Source of the DNA: an uncultured Bacteroidales bacterium
GTDB lineage: Bacteria; Bacteroidota; Bacteroidia; Bacteroidales; UBA932
DNA length: 64,000 nt
NCBI GenBank assembly: GCA_900318015.1
Contig: ONJB01000010.1
Location: 39,984 to 103,983 of the forward strand
Reading direction: 5' to 3'
In this document: positions 23,575-35,155 of the stretch, piece after piece
How positions within the stretch are numbered: the stretch's first letter is position 1
How the letters are laid out: each line of letters starts with the position of its first letter
Translations under genes and position numbers: made by a program
Notes under the pieces: generated by a model
Databases searched by the model: none
What the model saw: only the letters and a program-made list of their open reading frames with translations
What the model was told of the DNA's origin: nothing

Positions 23575-24423
23575 TTAATTCTTCTTGTAGGTAACGCCAC
23601 CCAGGAGGATTTCATACCAACCGCTGGAGCTGGCAGCACCCCATGCATTCGGGATGAAGAGGGAACCGTCTTCCTGAATGTTGATGATGATGTCAGCCTC
23701 GGAGGATTCGGCATCATTGGGATTGGGAGCGTCGAAACCGTAATAGTTCACACCGTTATAACCGGTAGCCTGACCGGCGGCGACGGTGATGACGGTCTTT
23801 TCCGCATTCAGCACGCCTCTGACGGGGCCCTTGAAGCCATTGCCACCCAGATAAGGCTCGAGGTTGGAGATGGAGAAGCTGTTCACATCACCTTCCCAAG
23901 CAGCCAACTCAATGGTGTGACCGCTGTAGTTATCGCCCCAGTAACCCATGCAATAGGAAGTCGTATAGGAACCGAAGTAATTGATGAGCGGATGGTCTTC
24001 GTCCTTGATGGTGAACTTGACGGAGTTGTAGTTCGGGAACTTGTAGTCGTTGGTCGTGCTGGCAATCTCGATGTTGAAGGTGAGGTTGCCGGTGTAGAGA
24101 CCTTCCTGGTTCTTCACGTTGACCGTGATGTACTGGGTGGAATCCCCGGCGAAAGTCAGGACACCGGAAGCCGGCTCAATGGAGAAGTTGGTGCCGGACT
24201 TGGCAGAACCTTCGACCACCTTGAAGGAAACCGTCGTGTTGGGATTCCCGTTCTGCGGATAGGCATGCACGGGGATTTTTACTGAACCAGCACGCTCGGA
24301 GACAGTGACGGAACCCGTGTGGAAAGCGACGAAATCCTCACTCGTGAAATGAGCGACGTGCGAGCAGGCAGCCAGGGAAAGAGCCGCAAGACCCGCGAGG
24401 CATATGTTAGCTAAATATTTCAT
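23575..24423 (-). CDS. surface lipoprotein with Calx-beta-like domain, SusCD-linked
   Basis: 282 aa from the ATG at 24423. Lipobox LSLAACSH near residue 20. Residues about 35-130 resemble a Calx-beta/immunoglobulin-like domain (SVTVSERAGSVKIPVHAYPQNGNPNTTVSFKVVEGSAKSGTNF...FTIKDED; here only short parts matter: SERAGSVKIPV and TIKDED). A second beta-rich domain follows with several aromatic residues. It is the third gene after SusC1 and SusD1, the position of SusE/SusF-type glycan- or ligand-binding surface lipoproteins. The ligand is unknown. A terminator follows, and an alternative TTG start at 24429 is unlikely. Confidence 0.78.
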   Translation of the reverse strand: MKYLANICLAGLAALSLAACSHVAHFTSEDFVAFHTGSVTVSERAGSVKIPVHAYPQNGNPNTTVSFKVVEGSAKSGTNFSIEPASGVLTFAGDSTQYITVNVKNQEGLYTGNLTFNIEIASTTNDYKFPNYNSVKFTIKDEDHPLINYFGSYTTSYCMGYWGDNYSGHTIELAAWEGDVNSFSISNLEPYLGGNGFKGPVRGVLNAEKTVITVAAGQATGYNGVNYYGFDAPNPNDAESSEADIIINIQEDGSLFIPNAWGAASSSGWYEILLGGVTYKKN

Positions 24424-24447
24424 ATTCAAATTCTTTTAAGGATATGA

Positions 24448-25971
24448 TTATTCTGCGGCGCTGTATCCGGGATTCTGGACCAGATTGTTGTTCACCTCGA
24501 ACTCGTGGGACGGGATCGGCCACAGATAGTGGAAATCACCGGCGGGGAGAGACTTGGACTCGTAGGCGGCACCCTGGGCCAGCGCACCGGCCTCGATGGC
24601 AGAGGCCTGGCCGGGACGGCTGCTGAAACCTTCGTTCCAACGCTTCAGGCAAACCATGCGGTAACCCTGACCGACGGTCTCCTTGAACCACTCGTTGTGG
24701 ATTGTGGTATTGGAAGCTTCCGTAAGGGAAGCGCCACGGGCGGACTGGAGGGTGTTCAGAGCGGACTTCGCGGAGGAGGCGTTGCCAGCGGCGAGGTTCG
24801 CCTCGGCGGCGATCAGGTACATCTCGCTGATGAGGATGGGCTTCACGGCCTGGTAGCCGTCAGGCATGGCATCCGGAGCGGAGCGGAGAGCGGGGTTGCC
24901 GAGGTACTTGGTGAACACGTAGAACACGTCGTTGTGATAGTCGCTGTTGAAGAAGACTTCGTGGCCACCCTTGTCGAACCACTGGGCCAGACGGAGGTCG
25001 TTCACCTCGTACAGGTTCATCAGGTTGGAGGAAGGGATGAAGTACGGACGGAAGTAGTCGCCATGGTCGGGATCGCGGCTGGTATTCGTCCAGGCGTCGA
25101 AGTTGCGGTTCGGACGCTCGGCGTACGTGGCGTACATCTGGAAGACAGGCTCGTTGCCCTTGTCGTTGAGCCACTCGTTCGTCATTTCTTCGGCGGAAGC
25201 GGAGAGCTTGTAACCGGCGGCAGAGGTGATGACCGTGTTGGCGGCGGCGGCAGCCTTCGCATAGTCCTTGATGTCCAGGTAGTAGCGGGCATACAGGGCG
25301 TTCACAGCGTCGATGGTCGGCTTCTGGGCACGGACTTCGCCCTTGACACCGGCGAGAAGCACGGCGGCGGAGTCGAGATCCTTACCGATCTGGTCATAGA
25401 CCTCCTGGATGGTGTTCCGGGCGGGACGGGCCGTCTGGTCATATTCGAGCACCAGGGGAACGCCCAGGTCGGAAGAAGGCGTGCTGTGCGCATAGGCCTT
25501 CGCATACAGGCGGACGAGACGCAGGTAGGAGTCGGCGCGGAAGAAGTAACCTTCACCGCGGACGACGGCGGCCTTCGCCAGAAGGTCGGCCGGGACATTC
25601 TCCTGCAGGCCGTTGATGACCACGTTGTAACGCATGATCGCGTGGTAGATGTTCTCCCAGTGATCTTCGGCGTCATAGTCGGTGGCGGAGAAGGAATTGT
25701 CGGTACGGTGGATGGAACCGTAGTTGTTACCGAAGTCGGCCATGGCGTTGAAGCCGTCGCACATCACCTCGGAAGCGATATTGTACACGCCGTACTGCGT
25801 ACCGCGGAAGTAGGAGAACATACCGTTCTCGAAACCATTGAGGTCGCTGGCAGTCTCCACAATCTGCTCGGGATTGTAGGCGATCGCGTTATTAGGCATC
25901 AGGTCCAGGTCGCAGGAAGCAAGCAGGGTGACGGCCGCGCCGAGCGCAAGGGTATTGATGATCTTTTTCAT
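24448..25971 (-). CDS. RagB/SusD-family nutrient-binding outer-membrane lipoprotein (SusD1)
   Basis: 507 aa. Signal and lipobox MKKIINTLALGAAVTLLASCDLDL. The SusD fold shows as TPR-like helices: ENIYHAIMRYNVVINGLQ (about 105-122), VRGEGYFFRADSYLRLVRLYAKAYA (about 137-161), DAVNALYARYYLDIKDYAKAAAAAN (about 225-250). The C-terminal SusD motif ISEMYLIAAEANLAAGN...LNTLQSARGA and ETVGQGYRMVCLKRW...LWPIPSHEFEVNNNLVQNPGY are complete. It forms the lid of the SusC1 pore and follows susC1 after about 20 nt. The ligand is unknown; no glycosidase is nearby, and the next operon encodes a protease, so peptide uptake is possible. Confidence 0.93.
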   Translation of the reverse strand: MKKIINTLALGAAVTLLASCDLDLMPNNAIAYNPEQIVETASDLNGFENGMFSYFRGTQYGVYNIASEVMCDGFNAMADFGNNYGSIHRTDNSFSATDYDAEDHWENIYHAIMRYNVVINGLQENVPADLLAKAAVVRGEGYFFRADSYLRLVRLYAKAYAHSTPSSDLGVPLVLEYDQTARPARNTIQEVYDQIGKDLDSAAVLLAGVKGEVRAQKPTIDAVNALYARYYLDIKDYAKAAAAANTVITSAAGYKLSASAEEMTNEWLNDKGNEPVFQMYATYAERPNRNFDAWTNTSRDPDHGDYFRPYFIPSSNLMNLYEVNDLRLAQWFDKGGHEVFFNSDYHNDVFYVFTKYLGNPALRSAPDAMPDGYQAVKPILISEMYLIAAEANLAAGNASSAKSALNTLQSARGASLTEASNTTIHNEWFKETVGQGYRMVCLKRWNEGFSSRPGQASAIEAGALAQGAAYESKSLPAGDFHYLWPIPSHEFEVNNNLVQNPGYSAAE

Positions 25972-25990: not shown

Positions 25991-28981
25991 TTAGAACTTA
26001 ACCTCGATACCGCCCAGGAACTGCTTGGAGTTACCACCCACACCGTAGGTGAGGTTGGAGTTGATTTCCGGATCGATACCAGTGTACTTGGTGAAGGTGA
26101 GGAGGTTACGTCCGGTGAAGGTAATCTTGAGATCCTTCACGGCATTCTGCCAGCCCAGGAGGACCTTCGGAAGGCTGTAGGCGATCTGGAGGTTCTTCAG
26201 ACGGAGGAAGGAGGCATCCTCGAGGAGGTGGGTGTCAAACTGCATCACGGCGCCCTTGGACCAGTCAGGCCACTTGGCGTCCCGGTGTTCCGGAGTCCAG
26301 AAGTCGGAGACCGCCTTGTTGGTGTTCATGGTGGAGAAGTTGGCCGGGTTGCCATAGAAGTAACCGTCGTTGGACACGAGGTACTTGCCGAGGACATAGG
26401 AGAAGTCAGCCTGCAGGGAGAGGCCCTTCCAGCCGCCGGAGAGGCTGAAACCACCGTTGATCGGAGCGTAACGCTTCTTGCCGGTGTTCTGGGTCAGACC
26501 TTCTGAGTCGAAAACCTTCGTGGTCTTGTCCATGGTCGTGATGTCGGGATCGTCACCCGGGACATACCACATAGGCATACCGTCTTCCGGATCGACACCG
26601 GCATAGATCGGGTTGTAGAACATGACAGGGCTGCCGACCACGTAGGCGATCATGTAGGAGTACATCGGCCAGGTGTGCTTGCCGTCGAACAGCTCGGTCA
26701 CCTTCTGGGCGTTGTAGTTGAACGTGGTGTTGAAACGCATCCAGTAGTCGCGGGTGCGGAGGATATCGAAGCCGAGGGTCACGTCGACACCGGTGTTCTG
26801 GAGGCTGCCCACGTTGTTGGTAGCTTCGTCGATACCGGTGGTGTACGGCTGGGGAACGTCGAGGAGCATCGAGGAGGTCTTACGGAGGTAGTACTCGAGG
26901 TCGAAGTCCAGGAAGTTGAACAGGCGGCCGGTGAGGGCGGTGGTGAACAGGCCCTGGCGCTCCCAGGTGAGGTGGGAGTTGGCCGGCTGGGCGACATGGA
27001 TACCGTTGGCGTCGGCATACTTGCCGGTGGAACCGACGAGGCCGAGGTGGGCGTAGTTGCCGATACCGGCGTTACCCTGGGTACCATAGCTGACCTTCAG
27101 GTTGAGGTCGTTGACGGCGCGGACGTTCTTCAGGAAGTTCTCCTTCTTGAGTTTCCACATGCCGCCGAGGGACCAGAAGAGCGCGTTGCGGACGTCCTTA
27201 CCGAAACGGGAAGAAGCATCGTTACGGATGGTGGCGTCGAAGATGTAGCGGTCCATGAGCGTGTAGTCCAGGTGTCCGAAGAAGGACAGGAAGCGGCTCT
27301 CGGAGTAGCTCTCGCTGACGGAACGGGAATCGGCGGTACCGTCGTTGACACGGGCCAGGCGGTCATCGGTCTGACCGTTGGAGGAGGCGGAGAAGTAGGT
27401 GTAGTAGTTCTCGACACCTTCGTGACCGGCGAGGACGCTGAACTTGTGGTCATCCGTGATCTGGAAGGAATACTCGACGGTGTTGGTGATGTTGGCGGCA
27501 TACTCCAGCGCGCTGGAGTGACCGACGGTGGCGGTACCACCGTTAGCAGCCACGTAGGACGGCTTGGTCAGCCAGTTGTTCAGACGGATATAGCCGTCGA
27601 CACCGGCGCGGGAGACGAACTTGAGGTTGCGGATGGGCTCGATTTCAACGAACACATTGCCGTTCGCACCGTAGCGGTCGTACTGGTCGATATGGTTGTC
27701 CATGTAGTAGGTCGGGGTGATACGGTTCTGGCCCGGGAACTTCTTCTCGTAGACATTGCCGTTCTCGTCCAAGGCCGGATACATCGGGATGAGGAGGAAG
27801 GACAGACCACCGGAAGTGTAGTTGGACATACCGTTGGCGGCGGAACCCCAGTTCGGGTTCTGCTGGGTGTTGGAGAGGCTGAGGTTCAGGTTGACACCGG
27901 TCTTGAGCCACTCGAGCGGGTGGGCCTGCACGTTGGAACGGAGGGTGTAACGGTCGAAGAAGTTACCAGGGGTGTAACCCTTCTGGTGGTACTGGGAGGC
28001 GGCGATCATGTAAGCCACCTTGGAGCCGCCACCTTCGATGGTGAGGTCATTCTGGTACTGCGGATTCCAAAGATCCATCATGTACTTGTACCAGGGGGTG
28101 TCGTAGTTGTAACCCTTGCTCAGGTAGGTATTGTCGATGTAAGCCTGGTCGTGGATACCGGCGCGCACCCAGAAGTCCATCAGTTCGGAGCTGCTCATCA
28201 TGCTCTCATAGAGAGAGGTGTCGGCGAGGGTGGAAACACCCCACTGGCCACGGTAGGTGACGGAAGCCTTGGTGTTGTAGGAACCGCTCTTGGTGGAGAT
28301 GTAGACGACACCGTTCGCAGCACGGGAACCGTAGATGGAGGTCGCGGACGCATCCTTCAGGACGCTGACGCTCTCGATATCGTTCGGGTTCATGTTCATC
28401 ACAGCGGTGCTGGAGGAAGGAATACCGTCGATCACGTAGAGCGGAGTCGTGCTGGCCTCGAGGGAACCGACACCGTGGAGGGTCATGCTCACCGCGTTAT
28501 CACCGGCGATACCGGAATAGGACAGGACGGACAGACCGGCCACCTGGCCCTGGAGCTGGTCGAGGGCGGAGGAAGACGGGGCGTTCTTGATGGTCTCGGA
28601 GTTCACGGTCGAGACGGAACCCACGATGGAGCTGATCTTCTTGGCGGAACCATAGCCCACGGCGATGGCCTGCTCAAGGACCTCAGCGTCGTCCTCGAGG
28701 ACGAAGTTGATGACCGCTCTTCCGTTGACGGGAGCCGAAGCCTCCTTGTAGCCGACGGAGGAAACCACCAGCGTGCCATTGGAAGGGACGGAAAGCGAAT
28801 AGGATCCGTTCGCGAGCGTCGCCGTACCCACGGAAGAGCTTCCCTGGAGCATGACAGCCGCACCGGGAACCGGGTCGCCATTACTGTCCGTAACGGTACC
28901 GGACACCCTGATGTTCTGCGCAAACGCGGAGCCTGCGACCAGAATCATCAAAGATGCGATCATAAGCTTTACTTTTTTCAT
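25991..28981 (-). CDS. SusC/RagA-family TonB-linked outer-membrane transporter (SusC1)
   Basis: 996 aa from the ATG at 28981 (MKKVKLMIASLMILVAGSAFAQ); an in-frame ATG two codons upstream (28987) is also possible. A carboxypeptidase-regulatory-like domain (VSGTVTDSNGDPVPGAAVML, about 25-105) precedes a TonB box region (LEQAIAVGYGSAKK) and the plug (IDGIPSSSTAVMNMNPNDIESVSVLKDASATSIYGSRAANGV region, about 175-235). The 22-strand barrel ends in GGIEVKF. It imports oligomeric nutrients with SusD1 by TonB energy. The leader resembles that of SusC2 (both open ATGCTTATG/TTGCTTATG-AAAAAAGTAAA). The promoter at 29067-29098 lies between possible recombination sites. Confidence 0.95.
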   Translation of the reverse strand: MKKVKLMIASLMILVAGSAFAQNIRVSGTVTDSNGDPVPGAAVMLQGSSSVGTATLANGSYSLSVPSNGTLVVSSVGYKEASAPVNGRAVINFVLEDDAEVLEQAIAVGYGSAKKISSIVGSVSTVNSETIKNAPSSSALDQLQGQVAGLSVLSYSGIAGDNAVSMTLHGVGSLEASTTPLYVIDGIPSSSTAVMNMNPNDIESVSVLKDASATSIYGSRAANGVVYISTKSGSYNTKASVTYRGQWGVSTLADTSLYESMMSSSELMDFWVRAGIHDQAYIDNTYLSKGYNYDTPWYKYMMDLWNPQYQNDLTIEGGGSKVAYMIAASQYHQKGYTPGNFFDRYTLRSNVQAHPLEWLKTGVNLNLSLSNTQQNPNWGSAANGMSNYTSGGLSFLLIPMYPALDENGNVYEKKFPGQNRITPTYYMDNHIDQYDRYGANGNVFVEIEPIRNLKFVSRAGVDGYIRLNNWLTKPSYVAANGGTATVGHSSALEYAANITNTVEYSFQITDDHKFSVLAGHEGVENYYTYFSASSNGQTDDRLARVNDGTADSRSVSESYSESRFLSFFGHLDYTLMDRYIFDATIRNDASSRFGKDVRNALFWSLGGMWKLKKENFLKNVRAVNDLNLKVSYGTQGNAGIGNYAHLGLVGSTGKYADANGIHVAQPANSHLTWERQGLFTTALTGRLFNFLDFDLEYYLRKTSSMLLDVPQPYTTGIDEATNNVGSLQNTGVDVTLGFDILRTRDYWMRFNTTFNYNAQKVTELFDGKHTWPMYSYMIAYVVGSPVMFYNPIYAGVDPEDGMPMWYVPGDDPDITTMDKTTKVFDSEGLTQNTGKKRYAPINGGFSLSGGWKGLSLQADFSYVLGKYLVSNDGYFYGNPANFSTMNTNKAVSDFWTPEHRDAKWPDWSKGAVMQFDTHLLEDASFLRLKNLQIAYSLPKVLLGWQNAVKDLKITFTGRNLLTFTKYTGIDPEINSNLTYGVGGNSKQFLGGIEVKF

Positions 28982-29036
28982 AAGCATTAGATTAGTTAAA
29001 CAAAATACACTATAAAACAATAATAGTTTTCAATCC

Positions 29037-29050
29037 AAAACGACCATTAT
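29037..29050. other. degenerate third crossover-like site (site A) in the SusC1 leader
   Basis: AAAACGACCATTAT matches the exact inverted-repeat sequence of sites B and C at 9 of 14 positions, keeping both inner half-sites (AAACG and CATT). It lies 16 nt beyond the SusC1 -7 box; site C lies 17 nt beyond the SusC2 -7 box. Its central pair is AC on the plus strand, opposite to site B. It may be a recombination site or only shared leader ancestry. Confidence 0.35.
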
Positions 29051-29066
29051 GGGCGGAATGAACTCG

Positions 29067-29098
29067 CAAAGTTCTAAAATAGATTTCAAATATGCAAA
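29067..29098 (-). promoter_or_regulatory. SusC1 operon promoter
   Basis: Minus strand: TTTG (29095-29098), 20 nt, GAACTTTG (29067-29074). The layout and much of the sequence match the SusC2 promoter at 30121-30152 (TTTGCA, same spacing, AACTTTGC). Expected leader is about 75 nt. It lies outside the exact inverted repeats but between sites A and B. The rest of 28982-29374 is AT-rich spacer without a gene I can support. Confidence 0.6.
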
Positions 29099-29374
29099 TA
29101 ATTATTCACAAATGGTTGTTGAAAAGAGCTTGAAGACCATAGGAGTCAGGCATTTACAGGGGAATCGGGAGCCCGTAAAATGTTAATGTCCTTGACGTGC
29201 CAACGTAGAATAATAACGGGACAAGGAATACGCGTGTTTTCAGCAGCATATACCTTTATCATATTGAACGCCATAGTCGATACCGGTCAGATGCAAGATT
29301 CACTTATAAACGGTCATTTATTGGTACTATTTGAAAAGTGAAAAGAAGAATGATTCATTAACAGTTTGACAATT

Positions 29375-29968
29375 ATGACTATTGCTTACATTAGAGTCAG
29401 TACGCAGATTCAGACCGGGCAAGGCCAGCGATTCGAAATCGAGAACTGGAGTGTCCGCTGCGGAATCACGATCAACACCTGGGTGGAAGAAAAAGTGTCC
29501 GGTATGAAAAAACTGCGCGAAAGGACACTCGGAAGAGCGCTCGGAAGAATGAGCAGGGGAGATTTGTTGGTTTGCACGGAGTTATCCCGGCTGGGACGTA
29601 ACATGATGATGGTCATGTCTATTCTGAACTACTGCAGCGAGAAAGGAATCAGGATACAGTCCATCAAGGACAATTTCGAATTGTCCGAATCCCTCCATTC
29701 GAAAATCATCGCTTTCGCGTTCTCCCTAACCTCTGAGATAGAAAGGAACTTGATTTCCCAGCGGACCAAAGAGGCGCTGGCCGCAAGAAGGGCGGCAGGA
29801 AAGAAATTAGGTCGACCCCGTGGAAAAACGAAACAGCGGATCCGTTTTGAAGCAATGCTTGATGATGTTCTCCGGCTGCGGGAGGAAAAAACACCTTATA
29901 ATATCATAGCAGACCAGGTCGGAGTCCACAAAAACACGCTTTACAGGTACCTGAAAGAGGTGTTGTAA
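29375..29968 (+). CDS. Mpi-like serine site-specific recombinase (DNA invertase)
   Basis: 197 aa from the ATG at 29375 (MTIAYIRVSTQ); a TTG at 29366 is less likely. The catalytic domain shows AYIRVST (Arg6/7 and nucleophile Ser near residue 9), VCTELSRLGRN (conserved Arg pair) and FAFSLTSEIERNLISQRTKEALAARRAAGKKLGRPRG, the long E helix. A C-terminal helix-turn-helix (PYNIIADQVGVHKNTLYRYLKEVL) binds DNA. This small resolvase/invertase form closely resembles the B. fragilis global invertase Mpi. It lies between divergent SusC genes and within exact inverted repeats, which argues for a local invertase rather than a transposon resolvase; no transposase or terminal repeats accompany it. Confidence 0.92.
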   Translation: MTIAYIRVSTQIQTGQGQRFEIENWSVRCGITINTWVEEKVSGMKKLRERTLGRALGRMSRGDLLVCTELSRLGRNMMMVMSILNYCSEKGIRIQSIKDNFELSESLHSKIIAFAFSLTSEIERNLISQRTKEALAARRAAGKKLGRPRGKTKQRIRFEAMLDDVLRLREEKTPYNIIADQVGVHKNTLYRYLKEVL

Positions 29969-30120
29969 GAAGTTTGTTAGAATAATTAAATATTTTTGTT
30001 TTAAATCATAAGTGACATTATTCTTTCAATTTAAACCATTCTGCCTGCTTATTGTGTCAAGATTGTTTGTTACTCAAGAAATAACAACCAAAATCATCAA
30101 AGAATGAGCAGTTTATAGAA

Positions 30121-30152
30121 TTTGCAGATTTCGTTTTTGTTTTACAACTTTG
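30121..30152 (+). promoter_or_regulatory. SusC2 operon promoter inside the invertible segment
   Basis: TTTG (30121-30124), 20 nt, CAACTTTG (30145-30152), five of six fixed bases of TAnnTTTG. It ends 17 nt before the right inverted repeat and points outward to SusC2, giving a leader of roughly 90 nt that includes site C. After inversion it would face SusC1. The remainder of 29969-30252 is AT-rich spacer. Confidence 0.65.
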
Positions 30153-30252
30153 CAACCGGAGTAGTAGTGTAAATGACCGTTTAGCAGTGTATTTCGACTA
30201 AAAGGTAAGGAATTATTACCAATTACAATATGTTTAACCAAAGATCTTGCTT

Positions 30253-33200
30253 ATGAAAAAAGTAAAACTGTTCCTGGCGTGCCTGCTGGCTGTCGCTTCG
30301 ACGGCGCTGTGGGCACAGAACATCACCGTCAAGGGAACCGTCTCCGACGCTTCCAACGGTGAGCCCATCGCCGGTGCAGCCGTCGTCGTGCAGGGAAGCG
30401 CCACTTCCTACGCGCTCACGGACGTGTCGGGTGCCTACTCGCTCACGGCTCCTAGAAACGGCGTCCTCGTCGTCAGCAACATGGGTTACAAGACCCAGTC
30501 TGTCGAGGTCAACGGCATGACCGTCGTGAACGTCGCCCTCGAGCCGGACACCGAGTACCTCGACGAGGTCATCGTGACGGCGCAGGGCCTCACGAGAAAG
30601 CAGAAGGCCATCGGTTATTCCGCCCAGGTCCTCAACGACGAGAAGCTGAACATCACCCACAGCCCCGCCATGGGCAACGCCCTGGCCGGCAAGGTGGCCG
30701 GCGCCCAGTTCTGGGGATCCGGCGGTTCCACCTTCAACGAGGGCCGTATCGTCCTCCGTGGTCCGACTTCCTACAACTCCCAGGAAGGCTCCCAGCCGAT
30801 CTATGTGGTCGATGGCGCCATCTACGGCAGCGCCGCCGCCGTTAACATGGACGATGTGGAGAGCATCAATATCCTGAAGGGCCCTGCGGCTACCGCCCTG
30901 TACGGTTCCCGTGGTGCGAACGGAGCTGTGATCATCACCACCAAGCGCGCCGAGGAGGGTTCCTCCTATGTGGAGTTCACCCAGACCACCGCGGCCGAGG
31001 TGTACTACAACCACCTGAACATCCAGAAGCTCTATGGTGGTGGTTCCATGGCCGCCCAGGCTACCGCCCAGTATGACGGTACGGGTGACGTCAATGATGC
31101 CGTCTGGTGCTTCACCAACAACAATATGAAACTCGCCGACGGAACCTTCGTCTATGACTACGGTGAGGACGTGTCCTGGGGCCCGCGCTTCGATGACAAG
31201 ACCCTCTACCGCACCGCCCTCTCCTGGGATCCGACTTCCGAGTACTACGGAAAGACCGACACCTGGAGCTACCGCATGGACATCCGCGACCTGACCCGCG
31301 TCGCCTGGACGAACAATACCAACGTCTCCTTCACGAAGGCCACCCGGGGCATGAACACCCGCGTTTCTTTCAGCAACGTGGACCGTCCCGGTATCTTCTA
31401 CAACTCCAAGGCCGTCCGCCGTTCCTTCAGTATCTCCTCGCAGATCAAGCCCACTTCCTGGCTCACCGCGGACATCAGCTACCGCTACCGTCTCCGCAAG
31501 AACCAGAACGCTTCCACAGAAGGTTATTCCGCCAACGGTAACTACGTGTGCGACTTCATCCAGTGGGGCCACACCAATGTGGACATCTCCACCCTCAAGG
31601 ATTGGCAGCGTCCGGACGGTTCCTGGCGTACCTGGAACATCAAGGGTGCCACTTCGGGTCCCCGTTTTGACGCCGGCAACTTCAGCCTCGCCACGAACTT
31701 CCATGACAACCCGTTCGCTGTGATGGAAAACTACAACCGTATCGGTGTTTCCCAGTATCACTCCATCGCTGCCGACGTTTTTGCGACCCTTCCGTACAAC
31801 TTCCGTCTCGGTGCCCGTATCAACGAGATGATGAACACCGGCAAGGATGAGTACAAGTATGCTTCCGGCTCCATCAACTTCGACCCGTACTTCCGGACGA
31901 ACCAGAGCCAGACCAACGACATCACCGCCCAGGGTTACCTGACCTGGAGCGGCCAGTTCGCCGAGAACCGGCTCGCCATCGAGGCCGCGGCCTTCGCCGA
32001 GACCCGTGCTTACGATTACTACTACATCAACGGCGCGACCAACGGCGGCCTGACCGTGGATGAGTTCTACAACCTGGCGGCTTCCCAGAGCACCTACAGC
32101 GCCAGCAACAGCGAGACCCACTACCGGACCCGTTCGTTCTTCGCCAATGCCACCATCGGCTGGGACGACCTCGTGTATGTGGACGGTTCCATCCGTTACG
32201 ACCTCGACTCCCGTCTGCCGGCCCAGAACAACGGTTACCTCTACGGCGGCGCGTCCCTGTCCTTCATGGTCAGCAAGCTCATCAACGCCCCTTGGCTGAA
32301 CTTCTGGAAGATCCGCGGCTCCCTCGCCCAGGTGGGTTCCACCCTCGGCGCCTACTCCGTGACTCCGGTTTACTCGGTCAACTCCAAGTTCCATGGCCAG
32401 CCGACGATGTCCGAGCCTTCCACCCAGGTGAATCAGAACATCCGTCCGACCATCTCCACCTCCTACGAGGTCGGTACCGAGTTCAAGCTCTTCAACAACC
32501 GCCTCTACGGTGACGTGAACCTCTACCTCAAGAACACCAAGGACGACATCATCAACTCCGGAGTCATCGCCTACTCCGGCTACAGCACCCGTACGATGAA
32601 CGCCGGCCTGGTGCAGAACAAGGGTATCGAGATCCTCCTCGGCGGCACCCCTGTCAAGACCAAGAATTGGGAGTGGAACATCTCCGGCAACATCTCCAAG
32701 AACATCAACACCCTGGTTGAACTCTTCGGCGATCCGGACGACTATTATTCCTGGTATTCCAACCGGTTCTACTACAACTACACCATCAAGTCCCGCGTCG
32801 GCCAGCCGGTCGGTATCATCCAGACGGATGCCCGTTGGAAGACCAACGAGGACGGCAAGCTGGTCCTCCAGAAACTCTCCGGCAACACCGCCGCCGCGAT
32901 CGGTGACGTCCGTCCGGTCTGGGAGGTCAACGAACCCAAGGAAATCGGTAATGTCCAGCCCGACTTCACGGGCGGTTTCAGCACCGACCTCACCTACAAG
33001 AACCTCACCCTGAGCGCCAACTTCGACTTCGTCATCGGCGGTCAGTTCATCTCCTGGACGAACATGTGGGGCCAGGGTTCCGGTCTGCTCGCAGAGTCTG
33101 CCGCGATCAACCCGAAGGGCAACAACATCCGTGAGCCTGTCCAGGTGGGCGGTGGTGTCTACATGGAAGGTGTCGATGCCGACGGCAACGAACTCACCGG

Positions 33201-33534
33201 TTACATGGATGCCTACTACCACTTCTACTACAAGTATCGCTATGGCAACGACTGCTGGCTGTACGACCGTACCTACCTGAAGATGCGCGAACTCTCCGTC
33301 CGCTATGCGGTTCCCCAGCGCCTGGTGGACAAGCTCGGTATCGGCATGCGGAATGTCAGCATCGCCTTCGTCGCCACGAACCCTTGGCTGATTTACTCCG
33401 CCGCCCCGAACCTGGATCCTTCCGAACTCGGTGGCTCCTCCTACAACTTCCTCGAAGGCGGTCAGGCGATCTCCACCCGTACCTTTGGTATCACGCTGAA
33501 GGCTTCCTTCGGCGAAGGTCGTTCCCGTCGCTAG
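30253..33534 (+). CDS. SusC/RagA-family TonB-linked outer-membrane transporter (SusC2)
   Basis: 1093 aa from the ATG at 30253 (MKKVKLFLACLLAVASTALWAQ); the TTG at 30247 is an unlikely start. Carboxypeptidase-regulatory-like domain VKGTVSDASNGEPIAGAAVVV (about 25-105), TonB-box-like LDEVIVTAQGLTRKQKAIG, and plug motif DVESINILKGPAATALYGSRGANG (shortened: NILKGPAATALYGSRGANG, about 215-233) precede the barrel, which ends in GITLKASFGEGRSRR. It pairs with SusD2 32 nt downstream. It is clearly a distant paralog of SusC1, so a different ligand is expected. Its promoter lies inside the predicted invertible segment, so expression is probably phase-variable. Confidence 0.95.
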   Translation: MKKVKLFLACLLAVASTALWAQNITVKGTVSDASNGEPIAGAAVVVQGSATSYALTDVSGAYSLTAPRNGVLVVSNMGYKTQSVEVNGMTVVNVALEPDTEYLDEVIVTAQGLTRKQKAIGYSAQVLNDEKLNITHSPAMGNALAGKVAGAQFWGSGGSTFNEGRIVLRGPTSYNSQEGSQPIYVVDGAIYGSAAAVNMDDVESINILKGPAATALYGSRGANGAVIITTKRAEEGSSYVEFTQTTAAEVYYNHLNIQKLYGGGSMAAQATAQYDGTGDVNDAVWCFTNNNMKLADGTFVYDYGEDVSWGPRFDDKTLYRTALSWDPTSEYYGKTDTWSYRMDIRDLTRVAWTNNTNVSFTKATRGMNTRVSFSNVDRPGIFYNSKAVRRSFSISSQIKPTSWLTADISYRYRLRKNQNASTEGYSANGNYVCDFIQWGHTNVDISTLKDWQRPDGSWRTWNIKGATSGPRFDAGNFSLATNFHDNPFAVMENYNRIGVSQYHSIAADVFATLPYNFRLGARINEMMNTGKDEYKYASGSINFDPYFRTNQSQTNDITAQGYLTWSGQFAENRLAIEAAAFAETRAYDYYYINGATNGGLTVDEFYNLAASQSTYSASNSETHYRTRSFFANATIGWDDLVYVDGSIRYDLDSRLPAQNNGYLYGGASLSFMVSKLINAPWLNFWKIRGSLAQVGSTLGAYSVTPVYSVNSKFHGQPTMSEPSTQVNQNIRPTISTSYEVGTEFKLFNNRLYGDVNLYLKNTKDDIINSGVIAYSGYSTRTMNAGLVQNKGIEILLGGTPVKTKNWEWNISGNISKNINTLVELFGDPDDYYSWYSNRFYYNYTIKSRVGQPVGIIQTDARWKTNEDGKLVLQKLSGNTAAAIGDVRPVWEVNEPKEIGNVQPDFTGGFSTDLTYKNLTLSANFDFVIGGQFISWTNMWGQGSGLLAESAAINPKGNNIREPVQVGGGVYMEGVDADGNELTGYMDAYYHFYYKYRYGNDCWLYDRTYLKMRELSVRYAVPQRLVDKLGIGMRNVSIAFVATNPWLIYSAAPNLDPSELGGSSYNFLEGGQAISTRTFGITLKASFGEGRSRR

Positions 33535-33565
33535 TTTATGGTCAATTTAAATTAGGAGAATGTAT

Positions 33566-35155
33566 ATGAAAAAGATATATGCCCTTTTGACCGCTGTCGT
33601 GGTTGCCGGTCTGTTCTTCAACAGCTGTGAGAAGATCCGGAGTTTCGGTGATATCAACAAGAGTCCGAACTCTCCGTCTACGGCCTTCACGAGCTACATG
33701 TTCACCCAGTCCCAGCGGTATCTCTACTATTTCGTCACGGGTAACGCCACCAACGCGTACGACCCTTGGCAGCAGCAGTGGAACGGTTATCTGGCCGAGT
33801 GCAAGAACAACCAGTACGGCCCGCTGGGCACGACCACTACGTGGGGTAACAGCACGTTCTATCTGACCCCGCTCAAGAACCTCCACTACATCATCGAGAT
33901 GAACGAGGATCCCGAGCAGGTGGATCTCCCGAACGTGACGGCCCTCGGTACGTCCGCCAACCAGATCGCGGCCGCGAAGACCCTCATGGCCTTCTACTAC
34001 ATGACCCTCTCCGACATCGTCGGTCCGATCGTCATCACCGAGGCCTTCCAGGGCTCTTCCGACGATAACTGGACGCCTAAGTACGACACCCAGAAGGAAG
34101 TGTATGACTTCCTTGACGCTTCCCTGAACGAGGCCTACGGCCAGTTCGACACGAGCGGAGACCTGAACGCTTCGGCCGACGCCTGCTTCGGTGGCGATAT
34201 CGCCAAGTGGAAGAAGTTCAACGCTTCCCTCCGCATGCTCGCGGCCATCAAGCTCTGCGACGTGGATCCGGCCACCGGCAAGTCCCGTTTCGCCAAGGCC
34301 TACAGCGACGGCGGCATGACCAGTTCCAGCGACAACTTCAGCCATACGCACGACGACTTGAACTGGAACATGCTCTACTACTGGAACAACCCGACCTATC
34401 CGAGCGCCAGCTTCGCGATGGCTCCGAACTATTTCATCGTGGAACAGATGAAGAAATTCAAGGATCCCCGTATGTTCAAGTATTTCGACATCGAAGGTTA
34501 CCTGGGCCCCCGCGATCCGGAAAAGTTCCCGCGTGATTCCTACGATTCCTTCTATGGTATTCCGCTCGGCCTGAACAGCAATACGGATGTTACGGCCTGG
34601 ACCCCTTACATCTGCTCCGTCGCCAACAAGATGCTGGCCATGGATGCCACCCTGCCCGTGATCACCGCCGCCCGTGTCCTCCTCACCGAGGCCGAGGCCG
34701 CTGCGAGAGGCTGGATTTCCGCCGATGCGAAGACCCTCTACGAGGCGGGTATCAAAGCTTCCTTCGAGCAGTGGGAAGCGGACGGTGCCGATGCTTATGT
34801 CGCCTCTGAGGCCGTCGCGTTCAACGCGGCCAACGCCATCGAGCAGATCGCGCTCCAGCGCTGGATTGCCGGCTACCTGGCCGACGGTATCGAGGCCTGG
34901 TCCGACTGGCGCCGTCTGGATATCCCGAAGCTCCCTGTCGGTCCGGAGGCTGCCAGAAACGGCAACTCGCACTATCCGTATCGTCTCGCCTATTCCACGA
35001 TGCAGGATCCTGAGCTGAACAACGCGCAGTATCAGGAGGCGCTCAAGGATCTCCGCGGCAGCGGTGACAACGTGAGCAGCCGCGTCTGGTGGGATGTCGC
35101 CGACAATACCGAAGGCGTCCTGACCGCCGAGCAGGTCACTCCTCCTTCCTTCTAG
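33566..35155 (+). CDS. SusD/RagB-family nutrient-binding outer-membrane lipoprotein (SusD2)
   Basis: 529 aa. The ATG at 33566 is preferred over 33560 because AGGAG (33554-33558) is better spaced. Lipobox VAGLFFNSCEK. The sequence (NKSPNSPSTAFTSYMFTQSQ, LMAFYYMTLSDIVGPIVITEAF, KWKKFNASLRMLAAIKLCDVD, LLTEAEAAARGWISADAK, EQIALQRWIAGYLADGIEAWSDWRR) fits the SusD-like_2 subgroup rather than the classic RagB/SusD family of SusD1. It should cap SusC2. The terminator follows directly, so the operon is two genes with no enzyme, which leaves the substrate open. Confidence 0.92.
   Translation: MKKIYALLTAVVVAGLFFNSCEKIRSFGDINKSPNSPSTAFTSYMFTQSQRYLYYFVTGNATNAYDPWQQQWNGYLAECKNNQYGPLGTTTTWGNSTFYLTPLKNLHYIIEMNEDPEQVDLPNVTALGTSANQIAAAKTLMAFYYMTLSDIVGPIVITEAFQGSSDDNWTPKYDTQKEVYDFLDASLNEAYGQFDTSGDLNASADACFGGDIAKWKKFNASLRMLAAIKLCDVDPATGKSRFAKAYSDGGMTSSSDNFSHTHDDLNWNMLYYWNNPTYPSASFAMAPNYFIVEQMKKFKDPRMFKYFDIEGYLGPRDPEKFPRDSYDSFYGIPLGLNSNTDVTAWTPYICSVANKMLAMDATLPVITAARVLLTEAEAAARGWISADAKTLYEAGIKASFEQWEADGADAYVASEAVAFNAANAIEQIALQRWIAGYLADGIEAWSDWRRLDIPKLPVGPEAARNGNSHYPYRLAYSTMQDPELNNAQYQEALKDLRGSGDNVSSRVWWDVADNTEGVLTAEQVTPPSF

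Follow-up and report, generated by a model that had tools for sequence, protein, structure and literature searches.

A probable either/or inversion cassette between divergent SusC/SusD operons of uncultured Bacteroidales, in a copy where SusC1 appears to have a promoter of its own

Does the short segment between two divergent SusC/SusD operons of an uncultured Bacteroidales bacterium act as a promoter switch, and if so, which of the two operons does it control? The 64,000-nucleotide stretch analyzed here (the window) belongs to a 3.2-Mb, 106-contig assembly (G000; 92.5% complete). Its leftward operon comprises SusC1, a TonB-linked outer-membrane transporter of the SusC/RagA type (25991 to 28981, minus strand), SusD1 (24448 to 25971, minus) and, downstream of SusD1, the gene for a Calx-beta-domain protein (23575 to 24429, minus). 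The rightward operon comprises SusC2, likewise SusC/RagA (30253 to 33534, plus), and SusD2, a SusD-like_2 protein (33560 to 35155, plus). Between them lies an 877-bp segment (29307 to 30183) consisting of a left inverted repeat (s2), an invertase gene, an outward promoter (promoter B) and a right inverted repeat (s3). An earlier note on this DNA had proposed that inversion of the segment toggles a single promoter between the two transporters. We consider it likely that the window holds a member of a group of self-contained inversion cassettes, one which works as an either/or switch in its family, and in which SusC1 has here acquired independence through its own promoter.

The invertase gene is an intact open reading frame of 200 residues on the plus strand (29366 to 29968, counted from a TTG); its true start is likely the ATG at 29375 (29375 to 29968). 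The product matched Resolvase (PF00239, 1.1e-29) and HTH_7 (PF02796, 3.2e-06), i.e., a resolvase catalytic domain with a C-terminal helix-turn-helix, and could be aligned to the solved DNA invertases 4m6f/3uj3. Residues R10, S12, R75, R78, E124, and R127 were invariant in an alignment of five family members. Its best match was the NCBIfam Mpi-family model NF009949 (235.7 bits over residues 4 to 198); since the equivalog cut-off of 272 was missed, the enzyme is related to Mpi but is not filed as Mpi itself. A promoter-like pair within 150 bp upstream of the invertase gene was present in 4 of 66 family loci, a sigma-70-type scan of 28900 to 30300 returned 3 sites with 3.2 expected (using a model that does not cover Bacteroides promoters), and no terminator-like site was found in the scan of the same region.

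The repeat s2 (TAAACGGTCATTTA, 29307 to 29320, plus) has a 12-bp core at 29308 to 29319 with the centre GT, and s3 (TAAATGACCGTTTA, 30170 to 30183, plus) a core at 30171 to 30182 with the centre AC. Complementarity between the two reaches 23 bp at 87%. Within the 3.2-Mb assembly, the 14-mer matched exactly at s2 and s3 only. With 2 mismatches it matched at 4 further places, which is no more than chance because a reversed-motif control gave 12 matches at two or fewer mismatches. The exact 14-bp inverted repeats, the Mpi-like serine recombinase gene between them (an intact frame with both domain matches) and the flanking SusC/SusD operons (SusC/RagA proteins, each followed by a SusD-type protein) were thus all found as the earlier note had described them. 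Its proposal that the enzyme acts locally and from its own gene also agreed with the data, as the gene lies inside the segment and the exact 14-mer occurs in G000 at this locus only. In the mechanism that we propose, a local Mpi-family invertase, encoded within the segment, would recombine the two inverted 12-bp dyad sites and thereby reverse the segment, whose far end carries a single outward promoter.

A protein search for Mpi-type invertases gave hits in 32 of 101 relatives (E <= 0.001) and in 125 of 400 genomes of the genus (E <= 1e-30). From these, 92 places were fetched with their flanks, comprising most of the hits with at least 49% identity plus a sample of lower ones. A scan of named genomes gave 15 further loci, of which 12 lay on contigs already in the set, two were new (L152 and L165) and one, a 28-residue piece at a contig start (L166), was left out; with the two new loci and the window, this made 95 loci. 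The relatives were metagenome-assembled genomes of uncultured Bacteroidales/Bacteroidia, several of them from the fore-stomach of sheep, goat or deer. In a tree of 94 invertases (the fragment L066 was omitted), a clade of 68 that includes the window was recovered with support of 98/98. Divergent SusC genes flanked the invertase on both sides in 47 of its members, and in 8 more SusC was present on one side and the contig ended on the other; in the other 13, something besides SusC or a contig end was found on at least one side. The arrangement was also seen in other genera of the family, where, among six hits outside the genus, 4 of 5 loci inspected had SusC on both sides and the fifth ran off its contig on one side; at E <= 1e-57, a draw of 398 genomes across the family yielded the invertase in 33, representing 4 of 25 genera. 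A neighbouring clade of 21 Mpi-type invertases from the same genus (including L049-L058, L060-L062, L131, L143, L144, and L149) had no SusC neighbour in 18 of its 21 rows, several of which lie very near contig ends. Some loci (L038, L098, L099, L108, and L129) contained 1 to 2 kb of extra DNA between the left site and the invertase.

The recombination site of the family reads AAACG-NN-CGTTT. A looser paired-site search that required matching centres found a pair in 45 of the 61 loci with a right-hand SusC. Because this search assumes that the centres match, sites were also chosen independently, taking for each side alone the best site located 40 to 130 bp from the SusC gene's start. When no more than one mismatch was allowed, a left site was found in 36, a right site in 38 and both in 29 of 47 loci. 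In all 29 two-sided loci the centres were reverse-complementary and non-palindromic (GG in 9, AG in 9, GT in 5, TC in 4, GA in 1, and AC in 1). Shuffled windows gave no two-sided locus in 50 rounds, and six control motifs gave 0, 0, 2, 0, 4, and 0, the count of 4 belonging to a motif that departs from the true site by a single base in each half. The other 18 loci did not carry such a site on both sides; the window is among them because of a degenerate left-hand sequence (s1, described below). The asymmetric central GT had been read in the earlier note as part of a serine-recombinase layout; asymmetric, matching centres, GT and AC in the window, are a feature that the strict two-sided loci share without exception. 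Repeats that are not conserved in relatives keeping the recombinase had been named there as evidence against a switch; they are conserved in 29 of 47 loci by the strict count and in 45 of 61 by the looser one. One left leader (L124, genome G267) held a site-like sequence with two mismatches and a centre unlike that of the cassette's own pair; perhaps this left operon was brought in with a foreign site.

Promoters were sought as TTG and TTTG 22 to 28 bases apart, with 27 as the commonest spacing, and usually lay 16 to 21 bp from a site. The -33 element of Bacteroides promoters is TTTG. Promoter B (TTTG ... CAACTTTG, 30121 to 30152, plus) points toward SusC2, 18 bp inside s3 and with a spacing of 27. 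The outward promoter reported in the earlier note is no peculiarity of the window. Of 45 right arms scored, that of the window among them, 37 carried the same one-ended arrangement, as against none of 45 left arms (mean 1.8 and maximum 7 after shuffling of the right arms). Seen from the genes, a promoter was located 70 to 150 bp upstream of 44 of 59 right-hand SusC genes and of 1 of 51 left-hand ones (two truncated genes omitted), the single case being SusC1 of the window. In the relatives, the lone promoter would thus be aimed at either one of two divergent SusC/SusD operons, and the best reading of the family, judged from sequence, is an either/or inversion switch.

If so, orthologous SusC genes may be found on either side of the cassette. 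SusC orthologues of at least 80% identity formed 19 same-side and 23 opposite-side pairs, with 9 of 14 clusters represented on both sides; at 90% or more, there were 5 and 8 pairs, and 6 of 8 clusters were on both sides. For pairs of at least 70% identity, we mapped the point ahead of the SusC start at which DNA homology breaks off; 32 of 70 pairs were usable (22 had no good site and 16 no alignment across the start). Homology of opposite-side pairs ended no more than 35 bp past the site in 17 of 18 cases (7 within 0 to 9 bp past it, 8 before it). Same-side pairs ran more than 40 bp past the site in 7 of 14 cases and ended early in the other 7; the difference between opposite- and same-side breakpoints was modest, with a one-sided p of 0.017 from pairs that are not independent. 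The only opposite-side pair to run on was L044/L134, in which the left arm resembles a promoter arm. This left arm of L134 (G244) matches the right, promoter-bearing arm of L044 at 79%, and L134 is possibly another dual-promoter case, though its site polarity is unlike that of the window.

SusC2 itself has an orthologue (87%) on the opposite, promoter-less left side of L152, with which it shares leader and site; homology stops 1 bp past the site. The alignment of SusC2 with the right-hand paralogue at the same locus (84%) continues into the cassette. A breakpoint at the site is what a past inversion predicts, but replacement of an operon can mimic it. L188 and L189 share ~90% identity across cassette and right-hand operon, and yet the whole left SusC differs from ~20 bp inside its start (as placed from match coordinates). 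This suggests that operons can be swapped as modules behind a kept leader, as with the apparently replaced left SusC of L189, so that opposite-side orthologues need not all stem from inversion. L187 to L189 (G634, G601, and G526) come from three species of another genus; their invertase proteins are identical, their cassettes ~90% identical, and the orientation is the same in all. The comparison of orientations that the earlier note had suggested was therefore partly favourable: both orientations relative to orthologous SusC genes occur between species, but no single operon pair was seen in both. At L093, which has the nearest orthologue of SusC1 (82.5%), a second SusC was absent from the 3 kb on the opposite side, and the locus was thus unusable as an inverted control. 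Within a locus, the leaders of the paired SusC genes had a mean identity of 0.75 versus 0.62 between loci, 20 of 45 exceeding the 95th percentile; the window (0.63) was not among the raised loci. The two genes often share leader and signal-peptide sequence, e.g., in L043, L118, L125, L126, and L152, and look as if homogenised.

The window copy has a different left side. Its s2 lies 326 bp from SusC1, and the left site of relatives is usually 50 to 110 bp away. A third, degenerate site-like sequence, s1 (AAACGACCATTA, 29038 to 29049, plus; centre AC on the plus strand), sits 57 bp away from the start of SusC1, at the position that the site occupies in relatives. It has 2 mismatches to AAACGNNCGTTT; the relatives, too, include sites with two mismatches (paired-site search). 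The window copy reads AAACG-GT-CATTT, with one half-site mismatch to the family's AAACG/CGTTT. The 3.2-Mb assembly contained AAAYGACCRTTW at 4 places, 3 of which belong to this locus, and its reversed control at 1; the fourth match (L179) lies inside an apparent open reading frame and was taken as chance. Between s1 and s2 extends an extra stretch, x (29050 to 29306), which is single-copy in its own assembly and whose match in the fetched relatives is limited to the first ~50 bases (29050 to 29099). It contains promoter A (TTTG ... GAACTTTG, 29067 to 29098, minus), directed toward SusC1 from 85 bp upstream and 17 bp inside s1. This motif-based promoter lies outside the 877-bp segment and has the same spacing (27) and the same distance from its site as the canonical right-arm promoters; the region 28981 to 29099 could be aligned to the arm of L094 that holds promoter, site and leader (63.8%, E 2e-4). 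With promoter A at SusC1, the window departs from the family pattern, in which a promoter serves solely the operon next to the promoter-bearing end. Promoters A and B each differ by one mismatch from the Bacteroides -7 consensus, given as TAnnTTTG in one account (PMC4747536).

In the window, promoter B is now aimed at SusC2; an s2-s3 inversion would cut SusC2 off and leave promoter B facing SusC1 across x. Since promoter A is outside the 877-bp segment, SusC1 should stay on after the flip. The predicted outcome is probably that SusC2 is switched on and off and SusC1 is on throughout, rather than a clean toggle. We infer inversion in the window strain, the action of the invertase on s2 and s3, and this transcriptional result from the features listed above. 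From the toggle proposed earlier, the separation of SusC2 from promoter B is retained, and either/or control fits the relatives, but the dependence of SusC1 on the flip is not, as it has promoter A. Our starting reading, in which SusC1 is off in the present orientation, was likewise made less likely by promoter A.

The window could still be a clean either/or toggle if promoter A were inactive or too weak and SusC1 needed promoter B. That is the arrangement of the relatives, in which left-hand SusC genes hardly ever have a promoter and right-hand ones mostly do, and promoter A is one base off the -7 consensus (PMC4747536). Promoter B is so as well, promoter A is canonical by spacing and distance (27 and 17, against 27 and 18 for promoter B), and no scored feature differs between them; we regard this alternative as unlikely. 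Alternatively, the switch might be locked or dying, with an inactive invertase and both operons expressed constitutively from their own promoters. The degenerate s1 and the long branch of the window invertase (0.9 in the invertase tree) would fit, but the reading frame is intact, the active-site residues are kept, and the 14-bp repeats s2 and s3 match each other exactly, which makes such decay rather improbable. Mobile elements often carry small serine recombinases, and the repeats might be incidental to an ordinary resolvase or a mobile-element remnant. Against this stand the covariation of centres in every strict two-sided locus and the recurrent placement between divergent SusC genes, and we give this explanation hardly any weight.

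A more elaborate version would make the window a three-site, two-segment switch with four expression states and feedback. The outward centre is GT at s1 (toward SusC1) and AC at s2 and s3 (from the cassette), so that s1 can pair as an inverted repeat with s2 and not with s3. L099 has outward GT on both sides, and hence the polarity of s1 exists in the family; where a second left site occurs elsewhere (L046, L097, L132, L134, and L108), both left sites are of like polarity. The inverted pairs s1/s2 (GT/GT about x) and s2/s3 (AC/AC) would share s2, and inversion of x would turn promoter A away from SusC1, so that it reads across s2 into the invertase gene. A single flip would then shut down one transporter and at the same time increase expression of the enzyme by which the other is switched. 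We consider this scheme quite doubtful. Under the favoured reading of a cassette with an independently expressed SusC1, a compact natural either/or importer switch would be present in many species of a Bacteroidales lineage that is uncultured and lives largely in the ruminant gut, with enzyme, promoter and sites all within less than 1 kb in the window copy. That copy would show such a switch rewired, one operon having escaped its control. The site centre varies naturally and is always matched within a strict locus (29/29), which makes it a clear comparative example of the serine-recombinase overlap rule. Variation of SusC/SusD at the surface could affect nutrient choice and exposure to phages or host immunity.

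A search of an open-access library met no report of this cassette, which does not establish its absence from print. Mpi of Bacteroides fragilis is a serine invertase of the same family that inverts promoters of surface loci. Its repeat is quoted as ARACGTTCGTN, i.e., ARACG-TT-CGTN (PMC8375218), in which the half-sites agree with the family site AAACG-NN-CGTTT and the centre is TT. As described in one report, Mpi acts on 13 scattered regions (PMC4747536), whereas exact sites of the window are local only, the gene is inside the segment, and the centre varies between species. The score of the window invertase is also below the Mpi cut-off. Many dispersed sites, the trait of a master invertase, were not found, the exact 14-mer being present at the locus only; in an assembly that is 92.5% complete, degenerate distant sites are possible.

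The Hin flagellar switch of Salmonella similarly uses a serine invertase and has an outward promoter at one end, which drives one operon on and off and leaves the alternative flagellin under a repressor, whereas in the relatives of the window the lone promoter would directly face either of two divergent operons. Tsr0667 is a tyrosine-type master invertase on several clusters, unlike the serine invertase inside a single promoter segment described here. Like the enzyme of the window, Hin is encoded within its invertible segment, according to one source (PMC5903667); Tsr0667 is described as varying SusC/SusD outer-membrane proteins in B. fragilis by shufflon-type inversions (PMC4747536). In the same account, Tsr19/BF2766 of B. 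fragilis combines local and distant promoter inversion (PMC4747536). It resembles the present case by local promoter inversion through a neighbouring recombinase and in that its loci include some where two or more repeats separate promoter from gene, but it is a tyrosine recombinase that also inverts a distant promoter and controls a polysaccharide and another gene cluster. Compared with these systems, the device is real and recurrent and probably new as a variant, and the toggle of the earlier note fits the kind, but probably not the copy in the window.
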